DNA of 64,000 nucleotides, from the NCBI GenBank assembly GCA_022843825.1, contig JALHMX010000005.1, forward strand, positions 1-64,000, in the 5' to 3' direction. The notes under the pieces are model-generated. The model searched no databases and had not been told where the DNA came from. It worked only from the letters and a program-made list of their open reading frames with translations. A program made the position numbers and the translations under genes. Origin of the DNA: Pseudobdellovibrionaceae bacterium. GTDB taxonomy: Bacteria > Bdellovibrionota > Bdellovibrionia > Bdellovibrionales > Bdellovibrionaceae. Shown piece after piece: positions 25,544-35,133 of this stretch. Numbering within the stretch: position 1 is the first letter of the stretch; each line of letters begins with the position of its first letter.

Positions 25544-25619
25544 GTTCCCATCGTCTAGTGGCCTAGGACACCTCCCTTTCACGGAGGATACAGGGGTTCA
25601 AATCCCCTTGGGAACGCCA
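25544..25619 (+). tRNA. tRNA-Glu (anticodon TTC), integration target
   Basis: A 76-base cloverleaf. The acceptor stem GTTCCCA pairs with TGGGAAC. The anticodon stem CCTCC/GGAGG has the TTC anticodon at 25578-25580, and CCA is encoded. Its 3' 31 bases form the left part of a 37-bp direct repeat whose second copy lies at 35097-35133. The element has therefore integrated here and restored a complete tRNA. Confidence 0.97.
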
Positions 25620-25625
25620 ATATTT
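25589..25625 (+). repeat. attL: 37-bp direct repeat overlapping the tRNA-Glu 3' end
   Basis: Identical over 37 bases to 35097-35133. It covers the T-arm, the acceptor 3' strand, CCA and six bases beyond the gene. The sequences diverge on both sides, which defines the crossover region of the integrative element. Confidence 0.93.
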
Positions 25626-25657
25626 CTCGCAACATATTGAAATCACTCATATTTTTA

Positions 25658-25685
25658 TACAGGAATCCCTGTAATTTTACAGGGG
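25658..25685 (+). promoter_or_regulatory. Clustered TACAGG motifs between attL and the integrase gene
   Basis: TACAGG-AATC-CCTGTA (25658-25673) is an inverted pair. It is followed by TACAGGGG (25678-25685), the same 8 bases that open the attL repeat at 25589 and attR at 35097. These may be integrase binding sites and may also control integrase expression, since they end 10 bases before its start codon. Confidence 0.4.
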
Positions 25686-25695
25686 TTATAGGTGA

Positions 25696-26862
25696 GTGTA
25701 TTATTTAGCTATTTACTTTATAAGACTGCCAGCCGATATAAAGTTTATGGGTTATACAGCACGTAAAATTAAAAATAATATATATATTTATCACGAGTCT
25801 TATAAACCTAGGACACAAAAAATAGTCCCACGTGATAACTATATCCACTTAGGTTTTTCGAATTCTATGTCATTAGAAGAAGCCAAAATCCGCTGTAAAG
25901 AATTAAATATTGAAGACCAGATAGAACGTACAAATATAAAAAAGACTCAAACACTTGAACGCATTAGAAAACAAAAGTTATCTTATGTAGCTTTTTTGCC
26001 TCATACCAGGGTTGAACGTTTCATAAGTGAACTAGAAGCTGATTACTCTGATAACCCTGAGAGACTGAATAATGTTAAAAAATTGTGGTCTTCAGCCAGC
26101 AAGATAATCACTACACTGAAGCTAGATTTTACAAAGTTTTTTGATAATAGAAATTTAGTATATAATTATTTTAAGAATGAAGCCTATTCGCCTGATTATA
26201 TCAAAAAATTGATTTGGATTATTAACAAATGGGGTGAATTCAGTGCTCGACAAGTTTCGGCCTATTATAAAGACATTCCCAAATTACCCTCTACTGCAAA
26301 GCAGATCATTTTGGATAAGCGTCAAGGTAAAGATGACATAAAACGCGCTGCTGATTTAATAACTTTTAAAGAACTAAAAAATCTTAGGACATCATTTAAG
26401 AATCAAGAATTAGAAATGCAATGGAACTGGATGTTCGTTGCTTTCAGTTTTGGTTTACGACCTACCGAATGTGATTGGCTTTTATCACAACCACACACTC
26501 CGATTGAATATGACAAGCAAAATAAATGTCAGGTTTTAAAAATATATCAATCAAAGCTTACTTCAGTTGACCATAAGGATAGATTTAAAGTTATTCCTGT
26601 GTATCTTGAAAATCAAAAAGAAGCCTTAAAACTAATTGAATCAAAGAATTTTAAAAGACCACTTAATAAGACTCTTAAAAGAATATTTGACCATAATGTT
26701 CAAACCTATTCGCCACGTAAAAGCTTTACAGACTTTATGCTTGAAAATAAATTCCAGCTTGAAGACATCTCTATATTTCTAGGTCACCGAAGTATCGACA
26801 TGACATGGCGTCATTATAAAGGTCGAACTAAGTTTAACTTACCTAAACGAAAAGCTGCCTAA
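25696..26862 (+). CDS. Tyrosine recombinase (integrase) of the element
   Basis: Site-specific recombinase expected to integrate and excise the element at tRNA-Glu. The catalytic residues can be placed as R255 (FGLRPTE), K287 (YQSKLTS), R341 (YSPRKSF), H364 (LGHRS) and Y374 (TWRHY). The usual histidine of the HxxR box is tyrosine here (Y338). The N-terminal part (about 15-80) has the DUF4102/AP2-like arm-binding look, and the core-binding domain is about 100-200. The GTG start at 25696 has AGGGG upstream; an ATG at 25747 is an alternative. Its position next to attL is typical of integrative elements. Confidence 0.92.
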   Translation: MYYLAIYFIRLPADIKFMGYTARKIKNNIYIYHESYKPRTQKIVPRDNYIHLGFSNSMSLEEAKIRCKELNIEDQIERTNIKKTQTLERIRKQKLSYVAFLPHTRVERFISELEADYSDNPERLNNVKKLWSSASKIITTLKLDFTKFFDNRNLVYNYFKNEAYSPDYIKKLIWIINKWGEFSARQVSAYYKDIPKLPSTAKQIILDKRQGKDDIKRAADLITFKELKNLRTSFKNQELEMQWNWMFVAFSFGLRPTECDWLLSQPHTPIEYDKQNKCQVLKIYQSKLTSVDHKDRFKVIPVYLENQKEALKLIESKNFKRPLNKTLKRIFDHNVQTYSPRKSFTDFMLENKFQLEDISIFLGHRSIDMTWRHYKGRTKFNLPKRKAA

Positions 26863-26879
26863 ACCTGAAAGGTCATGCA

Positions 26880-27203
26880 ATGAAAAAAATACTCTTATTA
26901 ATTCTCATTAACGTCTTCGCCAGCTGTACCAAACCAAAGGTAACCAACTGGCAAGGTACGTATTACCCTAAAGGTTGTTTAACATGTGATGAGTTTTATG
27001 AATATAGCCCGATATTTAAAACATTTAAAGAATGTAAAAGTTGGGCAGATACCAAGATAAAAGATACCATCGACAAAGTTTCGTGTGGACGGCAATGCGA
27101 ATTTGAAGGCCAGTTAGATATGTCTAAATGTGATTTAGTTGTTAGGTCTTGGGCAGTCCCATTGTTTCCTGACTCACCAACCTTTGATACTTATAAAGAA
27201 TAA
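26880..27203 (+). CDS. Small cysteine-rich lipoprotein in the element
   Basis: A 107-residue product with a type II signal peptide (lipobox-like VFASC at C16). The mature part contains several cysteines (KGCLTCDEF, FKECKSW, VSCGRQCEF, SKCDL), likely disulfide-bonded. GAAAGG precedes the ATG, 17 bases after the integrase stop, so it may be co-transcribed with the integrase. No family was recognised. It could be a cargo surface protein or an entry-exclusion-like factor, but nothing in the sequence shows which. Confidence 0.7.
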   Translation: MKKILLLILINVFASCTKPKVTNWQGTYYPKGCLTCDEFYEYSPIFKTFKECKSWADTKIKDTIDKVSCGRQCEFEGQLDMSKCDLVVRSWAVPLFPDSPTFDTYKE

Positions 27204-27229
27204 TTTTGCTGTACCTATTCAGATTTAGC

Positions 27230-27778
27230 CTATCTGTTGTAGGCAAGTTCTAGTTTATAAAAATCTGGTTCAGCATGACAAATAGCTACTCCATCTGGAT
27301 TACTACAAAACGCAACTGTGCTCTTATCACTACCTCGCACTATTATACTTAGGGAAGTTACTTCTTTTTTGTTGTTTATAACTGGGACAACTCTACTTAA
27401 ATCCTCAAATATTTTATAATATGTTTCTATGGCGTTCGACTTGGTTACCAGCTCAGCATTAACCTCTGTTTTGTAGTATGTGACAAAGTGATGGACGACC
27501 AAATTAGACTCATTATCGTAGACTGAAAATACTTCTGAGCCAGTCGGTCTAATCTTAAGATATTGCCAGTCACTAATGTTTCGCTCAACATAAGTAATTG
27601 CATACTTTTTTAATGAAGATTTAAGTAACTCCTCACCTTTTAATATTAAACGTTCTCGTTCTTTTATAGAAAGTAGATCAGCTCTCTTAGTAGCAACAAC
27701 AGAAGTAGTCTTTTTATCTTCTTTAATGACTATCAAGCAAGCGCCTATAATTAATATCAGTATAACTATGTTTTTCAT
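27230..27778 (-). CDS. Membrane-anchored hypothetical protein
   Basis: The 182-residue product has one N-terminal hydrophobic segment (about 4-18, IVILILIIGACLIVI). This may be a membrane anchor or, given the GAC, a lipoprotein signal. The rest is hydrophilic with mixed strands and helices and looks periplasmic. No known domain was recognised. It converges with the lipoprotein gene at 26880 and lies 26 bases from it. Confidence 0.6.
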   Translation of the reverse strand: MKNIVILILIIGACLIVIKEDKKTTSVVATKRADLLSIKERERLILKGEELLKSSLKKYAITYVERNISDWQYLKIRPTGSEVFSVYDNESNLVVHHFVTYYKTEVNAELVTKSNAIETYYKIFEDLSRVVPVINNKKEVTSLSIIVRGSDKSTVAFCSNPDGVAICHAEPDFYKLELAYNR

Positions 27779-27976
27779 TTCACTTTTATATCACAACTCA
27801 ATTTCCTTATGTGACAGTTTGTAAAAATGAAAGTCTTGTCAAAAGATTCAACAATCCAGGGTCAGCCTAACCTTTGAGAATGCTGTTCAATGGCTTAGTA
27901 CTTTTAATAGTATGATTGAATATATAGTAAAATATATATAGACCTAATCTTCGTTTTAAGGCTGATCGTCATTTAA

Positions 27977-27999
27977 AAATTAGCTGAAACAACTAATTT
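27977..27999 (-). terminator. Hairpin overlapping the end of the pentapeptide-like gene
   Basis: AAATTAG / CTAATTT with a 9-base loop, followed on the minus strand by TTTAAAT. The stem includes the TAG stop codon of the gene at 27993. Confidence 0.45.
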
Positions 28000-29129
28000 A
28001 TTTTAAACCGCTTTCTAATACCCAGAATTAAGAAAAACCACAATAAAAATATATATAAACGAATCACAAATTTAATAAACGGAATTAATGTATTATCTAG
28101 AAACCTAATGTTGGAATTACTAGTAATAATTTTTAATCCAGAATCACCTATAGCAGAAATTGGACTTACCAATACGGCTAAGTAATTATGAGCAAAATCA
28201 GTAATCAAGTTTAAATAAATATAGATATTATAATATGGGCTTTGTAGGATCTGCACCAAAAGACTGTATACACTTAACAGTAATGCTATAGCAGCAGTAT
28301 ATTTTACCATTGTCCAAAATGGTTTATATGTATCTAGTCCAAAACTATTTATCCAATCATAAGCTTTAAAAACTCTCGTCTCAATACTATTAGGATATCC
28401 AAGTGCCTGCTTGCGAGTGTATTGACTCTTTAACTCCAATGAACCAAAATAATTAGCCATTCTGTCATTTCCATTATCGCCGTAACAATTTTTTATATGC
28501 CTAAACGTACTAGTTTTTAATGGATCTCCACTTGTGAAATCACAATCATCAAAAAACACATTTTGCTTTAACTTTAAATGATTGAAACCACCAGCTTCAT
28601 CAAAGCTGCAATTATCAAATGAAATATGATCAATTAAAATATAGTCACGTTTTCTACTGGTTTCAGCTTCAACAACATGTATAACACTTCGTTCAAAATT
28701 TAAACCTGATATAACACTAGGGTCTCCGTACTCACGAAATTCTAATCGTCCGACACTGACATGCTCAAAATGTGTATATCTTGACGCCCCTTCTATCACT
28801 AAATTTTCTATCCTGTTAGGTTTTTCAGAATCACCGCCGGAAGTAAATCTTATTTGCCCGCCATATTGCTTTGTATCCCTTAAGCTAATCTCATCAAATT
28901 CACAGGCAAGAAATTCTAATGAAAATCTACTGTTCAACATTTTGTCTTTAGAATATAAAGGGTCTTGTGGTGTACTGTGGATGTACAGTTTTTCAAACTT
29001 GCAATTAACAAATTGAATATCCCCACCCATATACGCCAAACCTAAACTAATTTCTTTATTAGTAAACGCTGTATCGGTGAAGATCTGCGACATAACAATA
29101 CTTTCCATTTTAAATTGTGCTTTATTCAT
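27993..29129 (-). CDS. Pentapeptide-like repeat protein with C-terminal channel-like membrane segments
   Basis: A 378-residue product. The N-terminal two thirds contain degenerate F-x-x-C-x-F repeats typical of quadrilateral pentapeptide-type beta-helices (FVNCKFEKL, FLACEFDEI, ISFDNCSFDEA, VFFDDCDFTSG). Then comes the linker GNDRMANYFGSLELKSQYTRK and an INSFGLDTYKPFW segment. Both are seen in pentapeptide proteins fused to two-helix ion-channel modules. Membrane segments lie at about 275-295 and 348-373, with a less certain one near 310. The potassium-channel filter (TVGYG) is not visible, so any conductance is unproven. The gene is divergent from 29250. Confidence 0.65.
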   Translation of the reverse strand: MNKAQFKMESIVMSQIFTDTAFTNKEISLGLAYMGGDIQFVNCKFEKLYIHSTPQDPLYSKDKMLNSRFSLEFLACEFDEISLRDTKQYGGQIRFTSGGDSEKPNRIENLVIEGASRYTHFEHVSVGRLEFREYGDPSVISGLNFERSVIHVVEAETSRKRDYILIDHISFDNCSFDEAGGFNHLKLKQNVFFDDCDFTSGDPLKTSTFRHIKNCYGDNGNDRMANYFGSLELKSQYTRKQALGYPNSIETRVFKAYDWINSFGLDTYKPFWTMVKYTAAIALLLSVYSLLVQILQSPYYNIYIYLNLITDFAHNYLAVLVSPISAIGDSGLKIITSNSNIRFLDNTLIPFIKFVIRLYIFLLWFFLILGIRKRFKIN

Positions 29130-29195
29130 AAATTCAATAAATCAACCCACACTGGAAAACAGTCAATCAGAACTTCGATAGTTCTATCTTTTTAC

Positions 29196-29225
29196 TTGAC
29201 TTTAGCTTATGATTTGTGCTATATT
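29196..29225 (+). promoter_or_regulatory. Promoter for the divergent membrane protein gene
   Basis: TTGACT (29196-29201) and TATATT (29220-29225) are separated by 18 bases, 24 bases before the start codon at 29250. It is one of the better sigma-70-like matches inside the element. Confidence 0.55.
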
Positions 29226-29249
29226 ATGATTATCTGCTAGGACTACCCA

Positions 29250-30227
29250 ATGAACCTTTGGAACACAAAAGAAATTATTACTGGCACAATTGGATCTATA
29301 CTAGGTGCTATTGGATTTGCATCGATTGTATATATTTGGCGAAAATTCAAAACCCGCAATCAAATCGGCTTAGATAAAAAGATCGCTATAGAGTACTGGA
29401 GACTTTTTGGTGGACGCTCAGTACCTCTTTTGATGAAGTTATTAAGTGAACCTCACAAGCTAATACCTGATTCTAACTACGATCCTTACTATAATCGTGT
29501 TGAATTTTCTAATGACGAATGCAATCTCATAGATCAAAAACACTATAGCTTTTATACCAACCTTAAAAAAAAGCGTGATATTAGAATTTCAAGAGTGCTG
29601 TTATGGGATAAGTATGCAGGAAACCTTCAATTAGGTACTTGGAAAGATTTCTTAGCGAAAAAGCCAACAGATATTGAAACTTATCAATTAATTAATGACA
29701 ATGATCTTGACTCTGGCGCATCAATAAACGATTACCCATCTTCTTTAGATTGGAAAAAACATAGCTCAAACATGAAAGATCTTTCTGGTCAGGTTGGGTT
29801 TCTATTTCTAAGCATTAAGAACATTTCTAAGAAATCTCTAAGCAATTTAGAACTTACTTTAAACAAAGCTGAGGTTGAAAGTTTTTTACCTCAACAACGT
29901 GAAAACAGAATTAGAGGGGGTAACTCCTTTTCTCTTTTGAAAAAGAAGATAAAAGATAAAGGTTCTTTCGAAAAAATTTCAGCAGATAAGAACATTGTTT
30001 TTGCGGAACATATCAAGTTTAACTTAGGAACATTAGACCCTAGCACAGAAATACTATTTCTAATCGCAGTTTATAGATCTAATCAAAAAGGTTATGACGA
30101 TTTTTTTCTTGACGATGCTTATAAGCCAAAGTCAATCACATATCAGAATCTTAAAATGAAACTCAGAGAGCCCTTGAGAGATGCCTCTATTCGAGAACTC
30201 GTGCCTGATGGGTGGTTTCGGCAATAG
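29250..30227 (+). CDS. Hypothetical protein with N-terminal membrane anchor
   Basis: Not recognised. The 325-residue product has a membrane segment at about 9-30 (ITGTIGSILGAIGFASIVYIW) followed by a basic stretch, so the bulk is probably cytoplasmic (positive-inside rule). A possible beta-sandwich region around 185-285 (VGFLFLSIKNISKKSLSNLEL, then ILFLIAVYRSN) resembles immunoglobulin-like modules attached to membrane anchors. It diverges from the pentapeptide-like gene and is followed by a short gene at 30278. The arrangement would fit a small functional module. Confidence 0.6.
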   Translation: MNLWNTKEIITGTIGSILGAIGFASIVYIWRKFKTRNQIGLDKKIAIEYWRLFGGRSVPLLMKLLSEPHKLIPDSNYDPYYNRVEFSNDECNLIDQKHYSFYTNLKKKRDIRISRVLLWDKYAGNLQLGTWKDFLAKKPTDIETYQLINDNDLDSGASINDYPSSLDWKKHSSNMKDLSGQVGFLFLSIKNISKKSLSNLELTLNKAEVESFLPQQRENRIRGGNSFSLLKKKIKDKGSFEKISADKNIVFAEHIKFNLGTLDPSTEILFLIAVYRSNQKGYDDFFLDDAYKPKSITYQNLKMKLREPLRDASIRELVPDGWFRQ

Positions 30228-30277
30228 ATTAGTTTAAAAAGTGTTTTTTATCAGTAAGATATAGAAGGGGTTACTTG

Positions 30278-30553
30278 TTGAAAAAAGGAAAATATCCGGA
30301 AAAAATTCTGAAACTAACAAATAAGTTCGACGGAACTAATAAAATGTATTTAGACAAAATGATAGAAGACTTAAGAAAAAGAGGAAAACTCAATTTAGAT
30401 GATGACGTTTTTATTGAACTAAGTAAAATTGTTAATTTGAACGAATTGCCAGATTCACTATTAAAAGCGTTAAAAGATCTCTACCCTGAGCGCTCACTTA
30501 AGTATTTGATTACCCATCCAAACTTCACAAAGGTCAAAAAATTAAAGTCATAA
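30278..30553 (+). CDS. Short basic hypothetical protein
   Basis: The 91-residue, helix-rich and lysine-rich protein has no recognised domain. The TTG at 30278 was chosen because AGAAGGGG ends 7 bases upstream; a TTG at 30275 is also possible. It lies 50 bases after the previous gene on the same strand and may be read from the same promoter. Its small size and charge would suit a regulatory or antidote partner, which is speculation. Bases 30554-30789 after it hold no convincing gene. Confidence 0.5.
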   Translation: MKKGKYPEKILKLTNKFDGTNKMYLDKMIEDLRKRGKLNLDDDVFIELSKIVNLNELPDSLLKALKDLYPERSLKYLITHPNFTKVKKLKS

Positions 30554-30789
30554 TAGTAAATAATTAGTTTCACATGGGGAGATGCTACAGATATGCGTGT
30601 TTCTATACCTCAGTCATATTTTATTCATATATACCATTTAAAACGCAATAGAGCCAAATATATCGTTTATATCCTGTAAATAAGAAATGCAAATCCTGCT
30701 AAACTAGGAGTCGATTAGGAAGATTCTCAAAAAATTGCCGCCGCTATCCCAGAAACCAATCCGCCCACTAAAAGCCAGCACCCCTACCC

Positions 30790-30984
30790 CTACATTTTAT
30801 TAGCGTCTATAAAGCCCTGCATTAACATTTCAATAGCCACTGACGGCGAAACGCCTCGATCTTTGCAGGCCCTGCCAAAGCCCTTATACGTAGCTTTAGA
30901 AAGGTACAAACTTGTCTTTGTTCTATCGCCTTTAATACCATCAATCTTTTTAAGAACTTCTTTAGCAATTTTCTTAGTACTCAT
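30790..30984 (-). CDS. Small ribbon-helix-helix-like protein
   Basis: The 64-residue product starts at the ATG giving MSTKKIAKEV; a longer frame reaches 31035. The core TKTSLYLSKATYKGFGRACKDRGVSPSVAIEMLMQGFI fits the strand-helix-helix pattern of CopG/Arc-type DNA-binding proteins. These include plasmid copy-control proteins and antitoxins. It is divergent from the serine recombinase gene, so it may repress that gene. No toxin gene sits beside it on the same strand, so an antitoxin role is not supported. Confidence 0.6.
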   Translation of the reverse strand: MSTKKIAKEVLKKIDGIKGDRTKTSLYLSKATYKGFGRACKDRGVSPSVAIEMLMQGFIDANKM

Positions 30985-31039
30985 ACCTAAAGTGTAAATA
31001 AATCTATTTACAACTGTCAAATTATATACCGTCAAATAT

Positions 31040-31104
31040 ACCTAATTAATTATATAGAAGATATAGGGCCGGACTAAAGCTTGCATTAGCCTAATTAAAT
31101 AGGC
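31040..31104. promoter_or_regulatory. Repeated CCTAATTAA motif and inverted repeat between RHH and recombinase genes
   Basis: CCTAATTAA occurs near 31040 and again near 31091. The second copy is part of GCCTA-ATTAAA-TAGGC (31089-31104), an inverted repeat immediately upstream of the recombinase start codon. It could bind the RHH-like protein or the recombinase. Confidence 0.35.
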
Positions 31105-31111
31105 GGTACAA

Positions 31112-31702
31112 ATGAAAAAAACTGGAATATATGTCAGAGTATCTACGGATAACCAAAGTATAGATGCACAGCTACACTCTATAAAGAAGTATTGCGAATC
31201 CCAAGGAATAGCCAATTATTGCATATATTCCGATGAGGGTATTAGTGGAGCGGCTAAGTCTAGACCTGCTTTGGATAACCTTATTGACGATGTTGAGAAC
31301 TGTTGTATTGATACGGTTATCTGCTATTCATTATCTCGCATCTCAAGAACGACTACCCACCTCTTAAAGGTCTTAGAACGCTTTCAAGAACTTAATATAG
31401 ACTTTATTTCCCTAAGCGAGAATATCTCTTTATCAACTCCAGCAGGTAAACTAATGGTTACTGTTCTAGGCGCAGTATATGAACTAGAACGCTCTATAAT
31501 CAGGGAGCGAGTTATGTCTGGCCTTGCAAATGCCAAAGCTCAAGGGAAGAAGCTCGGTGCACCAAAAAGAAGAAACTCAGCATTAATTCGAGAACTGTAC
31601 AGACAAGGGATGAGTTATCGTAAAATCGCAGCTCTCGCTAGAGTGTCAATTGGCACTGTTCACGCTGAAATCAATGCGTGTTCATTAAAGCAGTCCGCCT
31701 AG
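31112..31702 (+). CDS. Serine recombinase (resolvase/invertase family)
   Basis: Small serine recombinase of 196 residues. The N-terminal catalytic domain has the nucleophile S11 in YVRVSTDNQS, with R9 beside it. The arginines of SLSRISRTT and the long E-helix region (ELERSIIRERVMSGLANAKAQGK) follow. The C-terminal helix-turn-helix is SYRKIAALARVSIGTVHAEI. It resembles Tn3-type resolvases and Hin-type invertases. It could resolve element dimers, invert a segment or help maintain the element. No matched inverted crossover sites were noticed nearby. Confidence 0.9.
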   Translation: MKKTGIYVRVSTDNQSIDAQLHSIKKYCESQGIANYCIYSDEGISGAAKSRPALDNLIDDVENCCIDTVICYSLSRISRTTTHLLKVLERFQELNIDFISLSENISLSTPAGKLMVTVLGAVYELERSIIRERVMSGLANAKAQGKKLGAPKRRNSALIRELYRQGMSYRKIAALARVSIGTVHAEINACSLKQSA

Positions 31703-31772
31703 AAAAATAAACATTTAAGTCTGTTTAGTAGATTGTAGATAACTAAACAAATTATAAACACAGGAGAACTAA

Positions 31773-31835
31773 TATGATTTCATTAGGCCTAATCCTCTTC
31801 GCTTTATATGTGATATTCTACATCATTATGTACTA
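31773..31835 (+). CDS. Possible 20-residue hydrophobic membrane peptide
   Basis: An ATG with AGGAG 7 bases upstream opens a 20-codon frame ending in TAG. The peptide begins MISLGLILFA and ends IIMY. It has no charged residue and is made almost wholly of Ile, Leu, Phe, Tyr, Met and Val, so it would form a single membrane helix. The frame fills the gap between the serine recombinase and the XRE regulator. Peptides of this size and composition include type I toxins such as Ibs and small regulatory membrane proteins. No antisense RNA promoter was identified. Confidence 0.45.
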
Positions 31836-31874
31836 GATACAGAATTAAATTCTTTAACGAAGGAATTATATAAC

Positions 31875-32213
31875 GTGAGCGAGAATGTATTTAAAATTTT
31901 TCCTCATATAGCCGAACCGCTAGAGGATATGATTTTAGCTAAACAACTTAAAAACCTATTACACCGAGAAGATGCAACCGTCGCACAACTTGCCCGTGCT
32001 ACTAAAATATCTGCCAAAACTATTTACCAATGGCTACAAGGTCAGAATCCAAGGGATTTGAAACAAGTTCGTAAAGTTGCTGATTATTTTTCAGTGAGTA
32101 TTGATTTTTTAGCGTTTGGAATAGAGCCGAAAACTAAAAATAGTTTTACCGACTATAGCGAAGAAATCAATGCAGGACAATTTGAAGTTATATTAAGAAA
32201 GATTAAGGCATAA
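31875..32213 (+). CDS. XRE-family transcriptional regulator
   Basis: The 112-residue protein has a Cro/C1-type helix-turn-helix (about residues 37-85: TVAQLARATKISAKTIYQWLQGQNP, then LKQVRKVADYFSVSIDFLAFG). This layout is common in phage and element repressors. The start is GTG with GAAGGA upstream. A short C-terminal tail probably mediates dimerisation. As the only classic repressor-like gene in the element it may control integrase or recombinase expression, or the small hydrophobic peptide just upstream. Confidence 0.85.
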   Translation: MSENVFKIFPHIAEPLEDMILAKQLKNLLHREDATVAQLARATKISAKTIYQWLQGQNPRDLKQVRKVADYFSVSIDFLAFGIEPKTKNSFTDYSEEINAGQFEVILRKIKA

Positions 32214-32214
32214 A

Positions 32215-32649
32215 ATGAAACCATTTTTTTTTATAATGTTCTTAGTGCTTATCGTGTCTTGTAAAAATAGCTATCAAACAGATAGCTCTAGCACATCAGT
32301 AGGAGATCAAAAACTGATTGGCACTTGGAGGTACATTAGCGACACCTGCAATTCCGTCGAAACTCCAACAACATGGGATTATAAAATGATAATTAGTCAA
32401 AATGGCGCAACAGTCGTTAATGTCAATCTTAACGATGTAATCTCTCCTTGTCTCTTTTCATTTAGCGCCACATCCTCTGGAAATGAAATCAACTTCTCAT
32501 TTGCCCCAACCAAGTCTTCACTAACAGGCAGCAGTTGTATAAATCATATAATTCTAAATGATCCAACCATAGAACCCTATATAATTTCAAACAATGATTT
32601 ATTGTTGACGAAGCAAGATGGTTGCATTACCAAATACACAAAAGATTAG
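32215..32649 (+). CDS. Lipoprotein with lipocalin-like body
   Basis: A 144-residue product with a type II signal peptide (lipobox-like LIVSC at C16). The mature part reads KLIGTWRYISDTC, then alternating strands with four cysteines, and ends LLLTKQDGCITKYTKD. The GTW opening and strand pattern recall the lipocalin-like domains of many small bacterial lipoproteins. It starts one base after the XRE stop codon, so the two may be co-expressed. Confidence 0.65.
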   Translation: MKPFFFIMFLVLIVSCKNSYQTDSSSTSVGDQKLIGTWRYISDTCNSVETPTTWDYKMIISQNGATVVNVNLNDVISPCLFSFSATSSGNEINFSFAPTKSSLTGSSCINHIILNDPTIEPYIISNNDLLLTKQDGCITKYTKD

Positions 32650-32668
32650 AATTAATCGAAAGGCTAAT

Positions 32669-32950
32669 ATGAGGAATATATTTTTTATTATTTTTTTATT
32701 TGGCTCTTCTATTTCTTTCGCAAAAACATTTGATAGCAAAATTAAAGTTGGTGATTGTATTTCCATAAAAGGCTTTTTAGATGCATACCATGTGTCTGCT
32801 ATAGTTCAAGTCCCAGTTGCAAAAGAGGAAACACTCTACCAAGGATATGCATTGACCTACAAGTTACCTGACAAAACGTTCTCACAAATAGGAACATTTA
32901 TCCCTAGCTTGGTAAATAGTAAGCATTGGAATAAGGTCAGTTGTAACTAA
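32669..32950 (+). CDS. Small secreted hypothetical protein
   Basis: The ATG at 32669 was chosen because it begins a clear signal peptide (MRNIFFIIFLFGSSISFA) behind GAAAGG. The longer frame from 32618 would place 17 non-signal residues first and overlap the previous gene. The mature protein is about 75 residues, mostly beta, with two cysteines (VGDCISI and VSCN). Function unknown. Confidence 0.6.
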   Translation: MRNIFFIIFLFGSSISFAKTFDSKIKVGDCISIKGFLDAYHVSAIVQVPVAKEETLYQGYALTYKLPDKTFSQIGTFIPSLVNSKHWNKVSCN

Positions 32951-32984
32951 CTGATTTAAATTTACTGCATGGTGGCAACTTAAA

Positions 32985-33509
32985 ATGAATTTCAATATTA
33001 TATATAGAGAAATATTTATTTTAGCGTGCTGGATCTTTTTTCCTGTCGGGCTGCTCGTGCTTATCATAATTCACACTTTTAAGGCTTTTAACTCAACACA
33101 TAAACTAACCAACAACGATAAGCCTGAGATGTTGTTAGAAAATAATAACTGCAAAATGCCAACCGTAACTAAACTGTTACATTATAGATCTAAAATTAGA
33201 TGTGTTAATCTGCCAATGAAAAATATAAATAAAAATGTAGCTTATCTAGAACAGCGCCCTCAACATGATGCTTATAATAATTGTCTATTTAGACTACAAC
33301 AATTAGTTGAGCACTATGGAGAAACCGATGTGTTTAACACCATTCAAGATATATATTATACATCACATCCTGAATTAGCATGGCATTTAAAAAATCTGAT
33401 AAGTACGTATAATATAGAATGCGTTAAAGATGCAATGGCAATGGTTGAATGGAGTACAAATACTAAAATTCTTGAAAAATACTACAAACTGAAACGCACA
33501 GGAGAATAG
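32985..33509 (+). CDS. Hypothetical membrane protein
   Basis: The 174-residue product has one strong N-terminal membrane segment (about 8-33, REIFILACWIFFPVGLLVLIIIHTF) and a soluble C-terminal region. It has no recognised domain. Its 3' end contains AGGAG, well placed to serve as ribosome site for the Sel1-like frame that begins two bases after its stop codon. Confidence 0.6.
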   Translation: MNFNIIYREIFILACWIFFPVGLLVLIIIHTFKAFNSTHKLTNNDKPEMLLENNNCKMPTVTKLLHYRSKIRCVNLPMKNINKNVAYLEQRPQHDAYNNCLFRLQQLVEHYGETDVFNTIQDIYYTSHPELAWHLKNLISTYNIECVKDAMAMVEWSTNTKILEKYYKLKRTGE

Positions 33510-33510
33510 T

Positions 33511-33894
33511 ATCTTAAAAGCTCTACTAGGTATCCTTACTGTTAATATAATTTCTTTTTCCTATGCCCAGTGGATTGTACCGCCTAAATCCTACTGGCCT
33601 AATCTATCAGAAATAAATAACTTCCATAAAGACTGTACTATCCAATCTAATGGACAAGCTTGTTATAACTACGGTGTACACTTAACTCAAAATCTTCTTA
33701 AAGAAGATGAAGGCATTGCGTTTTACAAAAAAGCCTGTGAACTTAAAGATTACCTAGGATGCTTCAATCTAGGGGCAGTTTTAATAAAATACGAAGAAAG
33801 CCTTAATCAAGGAATCCTTTATCTGGAAAAAGCCTGTCCAATAGTTCCTGATTCATGCAAGCTATTACAAGCCGCTTTAAAACATCAAAAGTAA
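33511..33894 (+). CDS. Sel1/Hcp-like secreted protein without a canonical start codon
   Basis: A 127-codon frame with a convincing signal peptide (LKALLGILTVNIISFSYA) and cysteine-containing Sel1-type repeats (GQACYNYGVHLTQN, YKKACELKDYLGCFNLGAVL, LEKACPIVPDSCKLL). This is the pattern of Helicobacter cysteine-rich (Hcp) proteins. The frame contains no ATG, GTG, TTG or CTG at all. Its first codon is ATC, 6 bases after AGGAG, exactly where a start is expected. Either ATC is used as a rare start, or the ATG has mutated (or been misread) and the gene is silent. It abuts the preceding membrane protein gene. Confidence 0.6.
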   Translation: MLKALLGILTVNIISFSYAQWIVPPKSYWPNLSEINNFHKDCTIQSNGQACYNYGVHLTQNLLKEDEGIAFYKKACELKDYLGCFNLGAVLIKYEESLNQGILYLEKACPIVPDSCKLLQAALKHQK

Positions 33895-34148
33895 AGCTAT
33901 AGACTCCTCACTTAAAAGCCTTTCACTGAGTTCATAAAATTCCTGTTAGTTTTTAACAACTCCTAAAAATAAACCTTTTCTCTTCAAACAAAAAATCAAA
34001 AATCTAAAAAAATCCAAAAAACTCATTTTTTTACGAATATGCAGTCGATTACTAAATAAATATATGAGATCTGAAGACGCCAAAAGCAATACATTGCTCA
34101 TAAAAAAATAATTCATTTTCTTTCAAAAAAACTCTCTGAAAAAAAACA
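33895..34148. other. AT-rich gap in the element
   Basis: A very AT-rich, poly-A/T-tract-containing stretch between the Sel1-like and nuclease genes. No coding frame, convincing hairpin or repeat was seen. An origin or regulatory region is possible but not supported. Confidence 0.3.
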
Positions 34149-34248
34149 AGTGAATATATGGGGATATTTTTTCAAAGATTCCCATCTGAAAAATCAAAGC
34201 CGAGCATCAAATGCTTTAGGCAAGCTATTACCCAAACGAAGGGCAAAC

Positions 34249-35028
34249 ATGAAAAAGAATCCTCGCAGATACATTGTACCATATCACACTAAAACAGATA
34301 AAAGAAATCAGGAGTTAGCTGGTCATTACCTTGAAGGGCAATACTCAATTGAAAAAACCAATATCTCTAAAAAGGAACTTGTTGAAAAAGATCTTATAAC
34401 AACAATAACGCCATCTGAAAATACCTTTAAAAGTCATTTCTACCGCCAACTACAATCAAACATTGCATTTTATGTAGCTCACCAGGCTTTTATACTTACC
34501 TATGGGAAATCAACACAAAAGCAACTTTTAAAATCATCAGACAATGCACATCTCGTTCAATACTTAGATTATATAACAATCTATAGACCTGATTTTTTAA
34601 TACCCCTTTATGGAATTGCTATAGAAATTGATGGACATATTCATAACAAGGATAAAGTTAAACAAACAAAGGATAGCTTAGCTGATTATGCTTATGCTGG
34701 CGTTGATTATTACATTTTCAGAATATCTAATGACGATGTTCACAGCCCAACCAAAAGACAAAAATTTATTAATGCTATTAATGCTTACATCGCTGAATGT
34801 AACACCGACCCTAGTCTACTTAAAAAATACCAAGCACGGCGCACAAGACAATCAACTTTAAGAAAAAAATATAAAGCCTTACCTCAACATCTTAAGAAGT
34901 CCTCGGTTGAAAAAAACCTAACCACTCCCATCAAAGACTCTGCTCGCTCTAAATACCAAGCTCACTATTGTGACGAACATGTCTATTGGACAAAGATAAG
35001 ACCAGTTAGCGCCATTCGCAAGAAATGA
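34249..35028 (+). CDS. Vsr/DUF559-like nuclease
   Basis: The core YRPDFLIPLYGIAIEIDGHIHNKDKVKQTKDSLADYAYAGV is the PD-(D/E)xK-type layout of the DUF559/Vsr endonuclease superfamily: D148 of PDF and E159/D161 of EIDG (numbered from the GTG at 34150), followed by a histidine and the YYIFRISNDDV strand. The ATG at 34249 was preferred because GAAGGG sits 5 bases upstream; a GTG at 34150 adds 33 residues. The C-terminal region (about 225-292) is strongly basic and probably binds DNA. It is the last gene before attR. It may act in element transfer, replication or defence. Confidence 0.7.
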   Translation: MKKNPRRYIVPYHTKTDKRNQELAGHYLEGQYSIEKTNISKKELVEKDLITTITPSENTFKSHFYRQLQSNIAFYVAHQAFILTYGKSTQKQLLKSSDNAHLVQYLDYITIYRPDFLIPLYGIAIEIDGHIHNKDKVKQTKDSLADYAYAGVDYYIFRISNDDVHSPTKRQKFINAINAYIAECNTDPSLLKKYQARRTRQSTLRKKYKALPQHLKKSSVEKNLTTPIKDSARSKYQAHYCDEHVYWTKIRPVSAIRKK

Positions 35029-35096
35029 ATAATTCCTAAATAGCCTGATTTTTACTCATTGCCTAATTTGAATAATGCACTACAGTAGAAATAAGT

Positions 35097-35133
35097 TACA
35101 GGGGTTCAAATCCCCTTGGGAACGCCAATATTT
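35097..35133 (+). repeat. attR: second 37-bp direct repeat
   Basis: An exact copy of 25589-25625 (3' end of tRNA-Glu plus six bases) without the rest of the tRNA gene. It marks the right end of the element and overlaps nothing else. The SOUL-family gene ends just beyond it at 35135. Confidence 0.93.

Follow-up and report, generated by a model that had tools for sequence, protein, structure and literature searches.

To our knowledge, protein genes outside infC that start at near-cognate codons are very rare. Passages of one study describe infC as starting at ATT in E. coli and at ATC in Streptomyces, and such starts as repressed by IF3 (PMC5472188). In a passage on N-terminomics of E. coli, one ATC is listed among 17 upstream start sites (PMC13245402). 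Chloroplast work, cited in a passage of PMC9845219, found initiation lowered when AUG was replaced by AUU or AUC, and the passages available from PMC11497404 hold nothing on AUC. The Hcp proteins are the second point of reference for the locus described here. In these proteins disulfides tether one repeat to the next, as stated in a passage of PMC3851747.

We analysed a stretch of DNA of 64,000 nucleotides, in the following called the window, and in it a reading frame that appears to start at ATC and to encode an exported Hcp-like protein. The coordinates of the frame, its parts and its surroundings are given in Table 1. The open frame spans 33493-33894 on the forward strand, comprises 133 codons and begins right after a TGA at 33490-33492. 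An initial annotation had reported a frame of 127 codons with an ATC 6 bases past an AGGAG, and these coordinates were confirmed. It had also stated that the frame is devoid of ATG, GTG, TTG and CTG. The first three are indeed absent from all 133 codons, but the statement fails for CTG, which occurs once in frame, at 33823-33825 (codon 105). This CTG is too late to start the protein. That the ATC is the first possible start was borne out, as no other codon fits both the AGGAG and the signal-peptide-like beginning of the protein. As in near-cognate-start genes of the infC type, no ATG, GTG or TTG is able to start the protein, and a Shine-Dalgarno site, the AGGAG, is found at a proper distance (6 nt, spacer AATAGT). 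Three further triplets, ATC at 33532, ATA at 33547 and ATT at 33550, were considered as starts and rejected by eye; they have no proper Shine-Dalgarno site and would truncate the signal peptide.

Table 1. Position and strand of the features discussed in the text.
Feature	Position	Strand	Remarks
tRNA-Glu	25544-25619		
att repeat	25589-25625	+	37-nt perfect direct repeat overlapping the 3' end of tRNA-Glu
Tyrosine integrase of the element	25696-26862	+	phrog_216 integrase, 3.2e-6
Cro/C1-type HTH regulator	31875-32213	+	PF13443, 28.4 bits (cut-off 22); phrog_8, 5.9e-13
Lipoprotein-like protein, 144 aa	32215-32649	+	By eye; ATG 1 nt past the stop of the HTH gene
93-aa protein, signal-peptide-like start	32669-32950	+	By eye; no Pfam match
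Upstream ORF, 174 aa, hydrophobic N-terminal segment	32985-33509	+	Stop codon TAG
Shine-Dalgarno-like AGGAG	33500-33504	+	Within the end of the upstream ORF
Predicted gene, Hcp-like exported-protein type	33511-33894	+	127 codons, ATC to TAA at 33892-33894
ATC, only plausible start codon	33511-33513	+	6 nt past AGGAG, directly before the signal-peptide-like stretch
Signal-peptide-like stretch, 19 codons	33511-33567	+	By eye from the translation; likely cut before Q20
Three cysteine pairs	33634-33858	+	Codons 42/51, 76/84 and 109/116
Second att repeat, right end of the element	35097-35133	+	37-nt perfect direct repeat

An AGGAG located 5-8 nt ahead of an ATH triplet was found for 12 of the 8958 such triplets on both strands of the 64-kb window. 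For comparison, a motif of at least 5 bases, 3-12 nt ahead of a candidate start within the first 40 codons, was present in 16 of 58 window ORFs. From these two counts we conclude that the ATC site is well formed except for the codon itself. The TAG of the upstream ORF, at 33507-33509, ends 1 nt before the ATC (junction TAG-T-ATC), and the same gap of 1 nt separates the HTH gene from the lipoprotein-like gene (TAA-A-ATG). The predicted mRNA structure at the start is ordinary (z 0.37). The probability of finding no start codon inside the frame is about 0.002 with the codon usage of the window and 0.027 with that of the island, and 193 of 12374 overlapping 126-codon stretches of window ORFs likewise have no ATG, GTG or TTG. 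The missing internal start codons are thus only mildly unusual, and they are consistent with the G-poor third codon positions of the gene (9 of 127).

The predicted protein begins with a signal-peptide-like stretch, as the initial annotation had claimed and as we judge by eye: a lysine at residue 3 is followed by a hydrophobic core and by S-Y-A before Q20. Six cysteines follow, one pair per repeat as in Hcp-type Sel1-like repeat proteins, with 8, 7 and 6 residues between the paired cysteines. A phmmer search against PDB sequences gave HcpC (1OUV) with an E value of 9.5e-18, which is summed over five stretches and inflated by the repeats (best single stretch 0.0005), and HcpB (1KLX) with 1.7e-5 (best single stretch 0.059). 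The protein thus resembles solved Hcp proteins, and designed TPR proteins match as well, making up most of the 19 matches listed; the best of them, 8BU0 (E 2e-7), stands between HcpC and HcpB. The similarity is therefore not exclusive to Hcp, which ranks first, but is shared with helical-hairpin repeats at large. The Pfam Sel1 family (PF08238) scored 16.1 bits, below its gathering cut-off of 30.7, and for this reason we name the predicted protein Hcp-like rather than a Pfam Sel1 member. The earlier description of cysteine-paired Sel1/Hcp-like repeats accordingly stands for the Hcp-like part, by PDB matches and cysteine spacing, and falls for the Pfam Sel1 part. For this protein PHROGs and PADLOC returned no match, and NCBIfam a single weak and irrelevant one. 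AlphaFold2, run on the single sequence, predicted six helices and placed each cysteine pair across one hairpin turn, at low confidence (mean pLDDT 55.3). A Foldseek search of the PDB with this model, which is too poor to carry weight, gave no match at E 0.001, the best being a designed TPR at 0.47.

A codon score trained on the codon usage of the 41 window ORFs of at least 180 codons gave 0.054 per codon for the frame and negative values for the other five frames, and none of 5000 composition shuffles reached this score. The 41 long ORFs have a 5th percentile of 0.039, a 25th percentile of 0.092 and a median of 0.166, so the frame lies between the 5th and 25th percentiles and is weaker than most. 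The scores of eight genes of the island, four of them long enough to belong to the training set, run from -0.039 to 0.211 and bracket that of the frame. Among the 183 stop-to-stop frames of at least 60 codons in the 64-kb window, seven have no start or a first start at least 60 codons in, and the frame is the only one of these seven with a positive score. The Hcp similarity, the three cysteine pairs and a codon score above that of all 5000 shuffles lead us to regard the frame as very probably a gene for an exported Hcp-like protein.

Part of this evidence also bears on a very improbable reading in which the frame has no start of its own: either ribosomes would enter it by frameshifting out of the upstream ORF, or it would be no gene. 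The two frames do overlap at 33493-33509, and a +1 shift would join them. Such a fusion would, however, bury the signal peptide inside a protein, and by eye no slippery sequence precedes the TAG; we rejected it on these two grounds. Against a chance frame speak the Hcp similarity and the codon score.

The gene is the last in a cassette that encodes, in order, an HTH regulator, a lipoprotein-like protein, a small exported-looking protein, a membrane-type protein and the Hcp-like protein. Neither the promoter-like sites (8 found, mean of 11.7 in shuffles) nor the terminator-like sites (2 found, 1.2 in shuffles, sd 1.4) exceed chance. Just 5' of the HTH gene a 20-codon ORF, MISLGLILFALYVIFYIIMY, is found behind an AGGAG at 31774-31836 (+); it is possibly a hydrophobic leader or a small membrane protein of the cassette. 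A shared leader motif, allowing up to 2 mismatches, was searched for and discarded: its one match in the window, at 31760, lies before the 20-codon ORF and not before the Hcp-like gene, and 48 of 100 shuffles did equally well.

The cassette is part of a 9.5-kb G+C-poor integrative element at tRNA-Glu, spanning 25589-35133 and marked by the 37-nt repeats, the overlap with the tRNA gene and the tyrosine integrase. The integrase stays below the cut-off of Pfam Phage_integrase (18.3 vs 27.1 bits), and 27 of 146 other genomes contain a match to it at E 1e-10. In one genus relative (L139) an ORF beside the same tRNA-Glu reads, by eye, like another tyrosine integrase, and the site may therefore be an integration hotspot; in a second genus relative (L142) no integrase-like ORF was seen by eye beside this tRNA within the stretch read. 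Two further genes of the element were looked at. A 378-aa protein at 27993-29129 (-) weakly matches the anti-phage Hailong effector HalA (E 0.00099, 18.4 bits vs a cut-off of 250), and PADLOC gave no match for it. A 259-aa protein at 34249-35028 (+) has weak DUF559/DUF2726 matches below the cut-off; we assume that it is perhaps a restriction-type or Vsr-like nuclease.

Homologues of the Hcp-like protein were searched for in several collections. A tblastn search against plasmids and phages gave no match at E 0.1. A peptide-pattern search, which reaches close relatives only, matched 4 stretches in viral contigs and 28 in genome contigs, where records near the genome of the window may be left out, and none of these was confirmed. 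Matches in the genomes of relatives were found in 17 of 195 (E 0.01), 36 of 367 (E 0.001) and 3 of 139 (E 0.001); the genome sets overlap between the searches, and the genome of the window is excluded from both numbers of each count. These matches are distant (23-50% identity). No homologue aligned over the start was found in plasmids, phages, viral contigs or relatives' genomes, no listed match reaching residues 1-12, and the same searches gave no sign that the ATC is conserved. Three distant loci were read (L047, L051 and L008), and all three encode cysteine-paired repeats. The best match in L047, from another genome of the phylum, has 37% identity over residues 36-126. Like the predicted protein, that of L047 has a signal-peptide-like N-terminus and serial cysteine-paired repeats (by eye), but it is far longer (470 aa), starts at an ordinary ATG and its N-terminus does not align.

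The neighbours in the cassette are similarly isolated. Used as bait, they gave no ortholog and one weak match each for two of them. The 144-aa lipoprotein-like protein has one weak match in 65 other family genomes (27% identity, E 7.6e-4). The upstream 174-aa ORF has no match in phages, plasmids, viral contigs or Pfam, and one weak match in 146 other genomes (E 0.0032) that contains four in-frame stops.

Mobile islands gather dispensable genes, and the Hcp-like gene and its upstream neighbour are orphans with no close match in the relatives searched. Moreover, a change of one base would turn the ATC into ATG, and the initiation site is well formed in all other respects. These observations would suit a recent ATG-to-ATC change that largely silenced an otherwise intact cargo gene, making it an early pseudogene on the mobile element. 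Yet its 127 codons contain no stop, frameshift or obvious lost cysteine partner, its codon score is within that of the island genes, and a leaky product would still be expected. On balance we hold such a loss of the start to be somewhat unlikely.

Distinctly unlikely, in our judgement, is a consensus or assembly error that hides a G at 33513 and with it an ordinary ATG start. The assembly is a draft of 33 contigs. By the RNase Y encoded in the window, which shares 89% identity with the one of an uncultured Bdellovibrio sp. MAG, the host probably belongs to the Bdellovibrionaceae or Pseudobdellovibrionaceae. Of the ten named relatives listed first in this RNase Y comparison, nine are assembled from metagenomes, a type of genome in which single-base consensus errors occur. 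A substitution exactly at the start codon would nevertheless be improbable at usual consensus accuracy. Such errors are also not common in the window, to judge by its start-less frames of 60 codons or more, none of which scores as coding apart from the one described here.

The organism's own infC gene was also inspected. It reads AGGAGG, 5 nt, ATT (contig C4, positions 1192-1194 of L046), the arrangement known from IF3 autoregulation, and the first ATG, GTG or TTG of its frame is a GTG that already lies within the conserved part. ATT is therefore its probable start, and the organism thus probably makes use of a near-cognate start codon. Together with the ATC of Streptomyces infC, this makes weak, IF3-sensitive initiation at the Hcp-like gene plausible.

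We tentatively take the frame to be a real, intact gene for an exported Hcp-like protein, carried as cargo of the element and weakly made from the ATC at 33511 as its only usable start. Weak, coupled and probably IF3-sensitive initiation at this codon is in our opinion the most likely single account of the gene, a preference we state with reserve. In brief, fMet-tRNA would be placed at the ATC with the help of the AGGAG site and of ribosomes terminating 1 nt earlier on the upstream ORF, and the protein would be made at a low level. After export, its three disulfide-paired helix hairpins may bind proteins as an adaptor in the periplasm or outside the cell. One could further speculate that the mobile element uses the ATC and the 1-nt coupling to keep the exported adaptor low and tied to the IF3 level of the host, which would make it an IF3-gated cargo gene outside infC and sigR; we consider this improbable.

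The initial annotation named the right set of alternatives, namely an ATC start, a recent loss and an error. A one-base change or error accounts for the facts as simply as an ATC start does, and a weak authentic start, a recent start loss and a consensus error cannot be separated by sequence alone. If the ATC is real and used, the gene joins the rare natural examples of near-cognate initiation beyond infC and represents a class of genes missed by callers limited to ATG, GTG and TTG. If it reflects loss or error, a single base is enough to conceal what is otherwise plainly a gene for a secreted protein.

The predicted protein is of an ordinary kind, an Hcp-like repeat protein, and its apparent start is rare. 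HcpC and HcpB are alpha/alpha repeat proteins with paired cysteines, an architecture that the predicted protein probably shares, and HcpC is exported; the predicted protein differs from them in having three putative hairpins only, a cysteine spacing of 8/7/6, an apparent ATC start and a gene carried by a mobile element in a Bdellovibrio-type bacterium. For infC and for Streptomyces sigR there is experimental support and a regulatory role, whereas the gene described here is known from its sequence. It shares with infC (ATT or ATC) and sigR (GTC) an apparent start other than ATG, GTG or TTG, of the kind that IF3 represses according to passages of PMC5472188.
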